The translations under genes were made by a program, and so were the position numbers. Shown one piece after another: positions 27,897 through 42,842 of a stretch of DNA of 48,438 nucleotides (its first letter is position 1; every line of letters starts with the position of its first letter). The notes under the pieces were generated by a model that saw only the letters and a list, made by a program, of their open reading frames with translations, had not been told where the DNA came from and searched no databases. Source of the stretch: an uncultured Pelagibacteraceae bacterium (GTDB lineage Bacteria > Pseudomonadota > Alphaproteobacteria > Pelagibacterales > Pelagibacteraceae). The stretch is taken from assembly GCA_902553695.1 (NCBI GenBank), contig CACDLR010000003.1:1-48438 (forward strand), written 5' to 3'.

Positions 27897-29243
27897 CTAA
27901 TTGCTAAGCAATGAGGACCAAGATGGGTCAGATGCGTCTGTTTCGGTAATAACTTGTCTTTCATTATATCCGGTCAAATCAATAGACCAAAGTTTAGCTG
28001 AAAAACCTTTGCCTTCACTATCAGATTTTGTCTCTCTATAAAATATTAATACTCTACCATTTGGTGACCAAGAAGGTGCCTCTTGATAATAATTTTCTGT
28101 TAGCAGTCTTTCTCCAGTTCCATCTGTTCTCATAACCCCTATATAAAATTTTCCTTTATGAAGTTTAGTAAATGCAATTAAGTCACCACGAGGTGACCAT
28201 ACCGGTGTACCATATAAACCATTTCCAAATGAAACTCTTTTTACTTTCGATCCATCACTTTTCATAACATAAATTTGTTGATAGCCACTTCTGTCTGAAT
28301 TAAATGTAATAAATTTTCCATCTGGTGAATATGATGGAGATGTGTCTATAGATGGATGATTAGTTATTCTTTCAACAATTCTATTTTCTAAGTCCATTGT
28401 ATAAATATCTGAATTTCCATCTTTAGCAAAGCTCATAATAATTTTTTTTCCATCGGGAGAAAATCTTGGTGCAAAAGTCATACCTGGAAAATCGCCAACT
28501 ACTTCTTGTATTCCAGTTTCAATATCTAGCAAATATACTCTTGGAAGATTTTTGAAATATGAAAGATAGGTAACCATTTGATTTGTAGGATTAAACCTTG
28601 GTGTTAAAACTAGTTCATTACCTAAAGTTAAATACTTTGTATTGAAACCATCTTGATCCATTATAGCAAGTTTTTTAACTCTTTGAGTTTTTGGTCCCGC
28701 TTCAGATACATAAATAATTCTTGTATCAAAGTATCCTTTTTCTCCAGTTAACCTCTCGTAAATTTTGTCTGAAATAATATGTCCAATTCTTCTCCAATTG
28801 TTTGGAACAGTTGTAAAAGCTAAAGCTAACATTTCTCTGGCAGCTAAAACATCCCATAATCTAAATTCCACTCTTACCTTATCATCTTTAAATTCTACTT
28901 TACCTGTAATCAAGGCTTGAGCTTTTATTAACGACCAATCTTCAAATCTTGGTTTAAGATGTGCTACATCAGGTTTCTGCAAAAATGCTTTTTTTTCTAA
29001 TGGATTAAATAATCCTGTAGCTTTAAGATTGTTCTCAATTACGATTGAGATTTCCTCACCAATTTGATTTATTTTTAATTCTTTTTTTAAAGTTTCGGTT
29101 GTTTCTTTATCTGAATAAAGTGCTGATACTGCGATAGGCAACGGATTTAGATTTCCTCTTGTAATATCTACTTCGATTAATGCATAAATCTTTGACGGAA
29201 AAGTTATAAATAGCAATAATGTAATTATTTTTATTATTTTCAT
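27897..29243 (-). CDS. tolB: Tol-Pal translocation protein TolB
   Basis: Signal peptide, WD-like beta-propeller repeats ([54 protein letters not shown]). Confidence 0.96.
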
Positions 29244-30052
29244 TATCCTTCTAACATCTCTCTTGCATCAAAATTTAATTGGAGATCTTTCCACTTTTCA
29301 TAACCAGTCGTTGGTACTCTTAAAGGTTGGCAAAGTTGTATTGCTCTTAATGCACTTTCAGCTAAAACTTTATAAAATCCTTGTCCTGGTTTATTCATTC
29401 TTGCGTGATCTAATATTTCTGATTTAAGAACAGTTCCATCTGGTTTTAGTTTTAATTTAATTCTAACTAATAAATTTTCATTATAAGGTAACCCTAAAGG
29501 TATGCTCCAGCAACCAAAAATTTGTGCCTTTAAAGCATCTTCTTCATTTAAAGTTAAACCTGATAATTTCATTGATTCATCCTGAGACTGTGTAATTTCG
29601 TCATTTTTTATAATCGTTTCTGCAAGATTTTCTTTTGATTTATCTATAAGAGCGGCAATATTATTTGGATCAAATAATTCTTTTTTCTCAAATTCAGATA
29701 CCTGTTTAGCTTTGTTTTCCTCTATTTTAGGGTTTTGTTTATCTTTTTCTATTTCTTTGATTTTTTCAATTTCTTGATCTGGTAAGGGTATAGAGTCTGG
29801 TTTTTCTTTTTTCACCTTTTTTGGAGGTGCTTGTTCAGAAACTAACTTTTCTTTTTCTTTTTTAACTTTTTCAATTATTTTTTCTGCTTTAGGTGCAAAA
29901 GGTATGTTGGTTTGATCTGCTATTTGTATCAACTCAACTGAGACTAAAGGAGGAATATCAATTGGTTTTTTTGCTATAAATGGAAAACTAACTATTGCAG
30001 TCATAATTATAGATATATGAAATAACAAAGAAAAAAGTAAATTTTGGGGCAC
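29243..30052 (-). CDS. tolA: TolA-like protein
   Basis: N-terminal TM helix, K/E-rich middle, C-terminal TonB/TolA-like domain ([52 protein letters not shown]); position tolQR-X-tolB. Confidence 0.88.
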
Positions 30053-42505: not shown

Positions 42506-42566
42506 AAAAATAAAAATAGACAAAATATTTATATAGTGTTATTAGATCGTCTTTTTGGAGGTAGTT

Positions 42567-42761
42567 ATTAAAATAGAAGTCAAAGATAATAATGTTGAAC
42601 AAGCACTTAGAGTTTTAAAAAGAAAACTCCAGAAAGATGGTTTCTATAAAATAATTAAATTAAAAAATACCTACGAAAAACCATCAGAGAAAAAAAAAAG
42701 AATTTTACAAGAAAATATTAAAAGAGTTAAAAAGTTAAATAAACTTAAAAATAGAATTTAA
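42567..42761 (+). CDS. rpsU: 30S ribosomal protein S21, apparent AUU start (ORF open from TTG at 42555)
   Basis: IKIEVKDNNVEQALRVLKRKLQKDGFYKIIKLKNTYEKPSEKKKR; SD GGAGGT at 42557-42562. Confidence 0.88.
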   Translation: MKIEVKDNNVEQALRVLKRKLQKDGFYKIIKLKNTYEKPSEKKKRILQENIKRVKKLNKLKNRI

Positions 42762-42765
42762 ATAC

Positions 42766-42842
42766 CGCGGGGTGGAGCAGCCTGGTAGCTCGCAAGGCTC
42801 ATAACCTTGAGGTCGGCGGTTCAAATCCGTCCCCCGCAACCA
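42766..42842 (+). tRNA. Initiator tRNA-fMet (CAT), CCA encoded
   Basis: CGCGGGGTGGAGCAGCCTGGTAGCTCGCAAGGCTCATAACCTTGAGGTCGGCGGTTCAAATCCGTCCCCCGCAACCA; C1:A72 mismatch and A11:U24 identify an initiator tRNA. Confidence 0.96.

Follow-up and report, generated by a model that had tools for sequence, protein, structure and literature searches.

An AUH start codon behind a good Shine-Dalgarno (SD) sequence at infC is the classical signature of autocontrol by IF3, and E. coli infC begins with AUU. In Streptomyces, infC starts with AUC and sigR with GTC (PMC5472188), and in Staphylococcus aureus AUA is used by infC, ccpN and citZ and AUU by cvfC1, such AUH starts giving ~10–30% of the output of AUG (PMC13009471). 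A sequence-only reading of the DNA studied here had confined AUU-type starts to infC and pcnB, which is too narrow in view of these Streptomyces and S. aureus genes. For rpsU, the gene for ribosomal protein bS21, the described case is that of Flavobacterium johnsoniae, where rpsU carries an extended SD and ribosomes without bS21 synthesise its product (PMC9976891, PMC10783764). A partial literature search returned no report of an AUU start for rpsU, or of an AUH start for any ribosomal protein gene.

The rpsU gene analysed here comes from a bacterium of the SAR11 group, whose cells are some of the most numerous in the sea. Single-cell and metagenome genomes of Pelagibacteraceae are the nearest to the source genome. 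The gene lies in a stretch of 48,438 nt, hereafter called the window, and the features of the locus are collected in Table 1. The S21 frame matches PF01165 with 54.5 bits against a curated cut-off of 27 (E = 8e-15), placing it within the bS21 family.

Table 1. Features of the rpsU locus, in window coordinates
Feature	Position	Strand	Details
Predicted rpsU promoter	42517-42545	+	TAGACA 42517-42522, extended TG 42537-42538, TATTAG 42540-42545
In-frame TAG upstream of rpsU	42543-42545	+	
TTG, rejected canonical alternative start	42555-42557	+	overlaps first G of the SD; not conserved
Shine-Dalgarno GGAGG (42557-42561), inside GGAGGTAGTT	42557-42566	+	conserved; pairing with 16S tail
rpsU (bS21, 64 aa)	42567-42761	+	ATT 42567-42569, stop TAA 42759-42761; PF01165 and comparison of 107 family loci
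Initiator-type tRNA-Met(CAT)	42766-42842	+	ARAGORN, Rfam RF00005; 4 nt past rpsU stop

Among 80 Pelagibacteraceae loci, a set made up by design of the closest matches, rpsU starts with ATT in 78, with ATC in L088 and with ATA in L100. Adding other genera gave 107 family loci with 104 ATT, one ATC, one ATA and one ATG (101, 1, 1 and 1 among the 104 left after removal of duplicates), counts that come from overlapping genome sets and that kinship makes dependent on one another. Aligning the upstream region across relatives, as the sequence-only reading had advised, thus places an ATH triplet at the ATT codon in 106 of the 107 loci; within that class the codon varies only between ATT, ATC and ATA, and it is never GTG or TTG. 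An assembly error at the ATT is ruled out by the presence of the same codon in independent genomes. A second family of the order, referred to here as the sister family, has ATA (33 loci) or ATC (one locus) behind an SD in its 34 rpsU loci. An AUH start that lacks a usable canonical alternative, the arrangement seen at infC, was found in 106/107 family and 34/34 sister-family loci.

Upstream of the ATT a single in-frame ATG, GTG or TTG exists, a TTG at 42555 that overlaps the SD and whose coordinates had been read correctly from the start. Synthesis of S21 from this codon would add four residues (M-E-V-V-I-K-I...) and is what a gene caller restricted to ATG/GTG/TTG would report; most loci also have a TTG in frame four codons ahead of the proposed start. 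We nevertheless consider such a start very unlikely. The TTG has only a run of T upstream of it; its counterpart is TAG in L036 and TCG in L062 and is missing in other genera, and in five other Pelagibacteraceae genera a TAG or TAA stands 2–5 codons ahead of the ATT. In 19 ATH loci of the 107, no ATG, GTG or TTG at all follows the in-frame stop before the start codon is reached; the ATG locus is the twentieth of this kind, and the same is true of 33/34 sister-family loci. In addition, the residues from TTG to ATT are variable among relatives, whereas those past the ATT are fixed.

Conservation of the ATT is not special when taken alone, since the third codon, ATA at 42573, is equally conserved (103 of the 106 Ile codons there are ATA). 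This near-invariance could be taken to favour initiation at the third codon, yielding a protein two residues shorter. However, the ATA lies 11 nt from GGAGG, compared with 5 nt for the ATT, a proper spacing that had been put at 4–5 nt, and, counted from the ATT, the D-N-N motif is reached after the same length as in normally starting relatives, bearing out the view that S21 has its typical length when counted from the ATT. The single ATG relative also points to the first codon, so that a third-codon start is extremely improbable. That ATG (locus L169, from G305, of the same genus) sits exactly at the ATT codon position; a homologue with ATG at a different conserved position, which the sequence-only reading had named as evidence against an AUU start, did not appear. 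In L169 the SD is lost and the promoter-like motif and the tRNA are retained, start codon and SD having been altered together.

Relatives, near-upstream stops, the same-codon ATG relative and the ATA/ATC starts of the sister family all agree with the original proposal of an AUU start behind a strong SD, and on this comparative evidence rpsU very probably begins at AUU. The first residue is presumably methionine, with AUU decoded by fMet-tRNA. Two of the loci surveyed are irregular in other ways: on contig CACOZH010000009.1 the rpsU locus occurs twice, in inverted orientation (L033 and L034), possibly an assembly artefact, and in L167 (G373) the S21 frame is broken downstream of a normal SD-ATT start, by a frameshift or an assembly error.

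Immediately before the AUU, GGAGGUAGUU can form up to 10 bp, including two G-U pairs, with the 16S 3′ tail 5′-GGAUUACCUCC-3′; the tail reads GGATTACCTCCTTTCT in the source genome and in five relatives. At −14.9 kcal/mol this duplex is the strongest of the 46 starts in the window, most of which have no SD, so that by the standard applied to Bacteroidia the SD is exceptional among the genes of the window. Pairing of equal strength occurs in 0.05% of random 22-mers. Over the 107 loci the median duplex energy is −12.9 kcal/mol, and in about one-third of family loci a T at −3 breaks the 10-bp helix. Position −1 is U and position +4 is A in all 107 loci; A37 and U33 in the initiator tRNA can pair with these flanking nucleotides and so lengthen the codon–anticodon helix. 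The promoter prediction is based on columns from −30 to −22 that are conserved across the 107 loci, and this promoter-like motif suggests an rpsU leader of only ~15–18 nt. A structured leader RNA was considered and rejected, the fold of 42549–42626 being no better than shuffles (z 0.24), and an Rfam search gave no family at gathering score except tRNA. Elsewhere in the window, the second-strongest SD-like pairing (−11.7 kcal/mol) lies ahead of the GTG of a 269-aa frame at 29243–30052 on the minus strand.

Other genes and other lineages were used for comparison. The gene for bS20 starts with ATG in 27/27 cases in the same lineages, and 57/57 S21 genes from viral contigs carry ATG or TTG close to where a start is expected, that of phage HTVC008M starting with ATG. 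Of 30 phylum-level loci, 29 are gammaproteobacteria-like and all start rpsU with ATG; the 30th, from an alphaproteobacterium, has GTG. For 100 alphaproteobacteria outside the order, automatic classification, ambiguous in a few cases, gave 45 GTG, 22 TTG, 21 ATG, 7 ATC, 3 ATA and 2 ATT, the 12 AUH starts recurring in nine families. These counts indicate that rpsU frequently has a weak start in alphaproteobacteria; in Caulobacter, 74.3% of all starts are ATG (PMC4117421).

The prevalence of GTG and TTG bears on an explanation without any regulation by IF3 or S21, in which AUU is simply a fixed low-output setting that offsets the strong SD. Most alphaproteobacteria give rpsU a weak GTG or TTG start, for which IF3 repression is not reported (PMC5472188), and the loss of SD and weak codon together in L169 is what a balance between the two predicts. 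A fixed setting would, however, permit drift to GTG or TTG, whereas the SAR11 codon stays ATT, ATA or ATC. We regard this explanation as a serious competitor, although somewhat improbable.

The start of infC provides evidence in both directions. In the sister family (L248–L271), infC begins at ATA, has AAGGAG as its SD and is closely preceded by a stop in frame. The start of Pelagibacteraceae infC is GTG, in most cases right behind an in-frame TAA; the IF3-type start is thus found on both genes in the sister family and on rpsU alone in Pelagibacteraceae. That the sister family puts the same codon class on infC and rpsU makes IF3-type control plausible. Against such a model, the IF3 gene of Pelagibacteraceae is itself without an AUH start.

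The gene next to rpsU is also of interest. An initiator-type tRNA-Met(CAT) gene is located downstream of rpsU in 105 of the 107 scored family loci, mostly 3–7 nt past the stop, but neither genus g194 nor the sister family has it next to rpsU; 31/33 genomes of the order have exactly one gene of the initiator pattern. We infer that rpsU and the tRNA are on one transcript. If they are co-transcribed, the rpsU mRNA released by tRNA 5′ processing would end just past its stop codon. The anticodon stem contains A29:U41 (instead of G:C), G30:C40 and G31:C39, and published work on a G30:C40 variant connects this stem with the ability to discriminate against start codons that are non-canonical (PMC11497404). 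The A29:U41 tRNA was rejected as a special cause of AUH starts: the stem (≤1 mismatch) is present in 55/80 genomes, many with GTG, TTG or ATG at rpsU, and being common across the class, A29:U41 alone does not explain AUU.

The maintenance of so odd a start in >100 relatives suggests that the cell limits or controls the amount of S21. Taking infC, sigR, ccpN/cvfC1 and F. johnsoniae rpsU as analogues (PMC5472188, PMC13009471, PMC9976891), we propose that rpsU combines an AUU start with IF3-sensitive control, a joint reading to which we assign a probability of about 0.55. Strong SD pairing right up to the start, together with U(−1) and A(+4), would make the poor AUU codon usable. Output of S21 would be kept below the level set by the SD alone and would depend on IF3, on the initiator tRNA and on the condition of the 30S subunit, synthesis being held down, as proposed, because AUU is among the codons that IF3 rejects. 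The start could in this way act as a valve on stoichiometry: 30S subunits deficient in bS21, a protein situated beside the anti-SD tail, would translate the rpsU mRNA, and complete 30S subunits with IF3 would reject it. Feedback by S21 on rpsU, considered by itself, is a doubtful element. In G305, with ATG and no SD, the device is dispensable.

A broader and rather speculative reading, which we think unlikely as a whole, would have alphaproteobacteria share control of rpsU through a deliberately weak start, taken furthest, to AUH, in SAR11 and about nine further families; IF3 and bS21-free 30S subunits would set the S21 supply, the sole initiator tRNA gene of Pelagibacteraceae would be in the same transcript, and phages with their own S21 would evade the control through AUG/UUG. 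Viral S21 genes with normal starts provide a natural contrast to SAR11 rpsU, and the question of how cells set their S21 supply becomes testable with simple reporters. In practical terms, gene callers allowing only ATG, GTG and TTG will give SAR11 S21 a wrong N-terminus, or may miss the gene where no such codon is available.

Start-codon control by IF3 and SD control dependent on bS21 are usually separate ideas, and they meet at rpsU. Like E. coli infC (AUU) and other IF3-autocontrolled infC genes, SAR11 rpsU is a translation-apparatus gene with an AUH codon behind a good SD, and the sister family has the infC-type device at infC (ATA) as well; unlike infC, the product is a ribosomal protein and not IF3, and Pelagibacteraceae infC has GTG. 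With rpsU of F. johnsoniae and other Bacteroidia, where bS21 autoregulation operates (PMC9976891), it shares the gene and an exceptionally strong, extendable SD that, within the window, stands out among genes mostly without one. An AUU start is not described for Bacteroidia rpsU (PMC9976891), and the extended helix of the Bacteroidia type is taken as 9–13 bp, compared with ≤10 bp including wobble pairs in SAR11, where −3 is unpaired in about one-third of relatives. Conserved AUH codons with an extended, start-proximal SD are likewise present at S. aureus cvfC1 (AUU), ccpN (AUA) and infC (AUA) (PMC13009471); those are other genes in another phylum and are backed by experiment, whereas SAR11 rpsU is known from sequence. 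Finally, Streptomyces sigR (GTC) also has a non-canonical start, one that limits the amount of its protein (PMC5472188), but it differs in codon and gene, and the IF3 repression shown for sigR is, for SAR11 rpsU, proposed.
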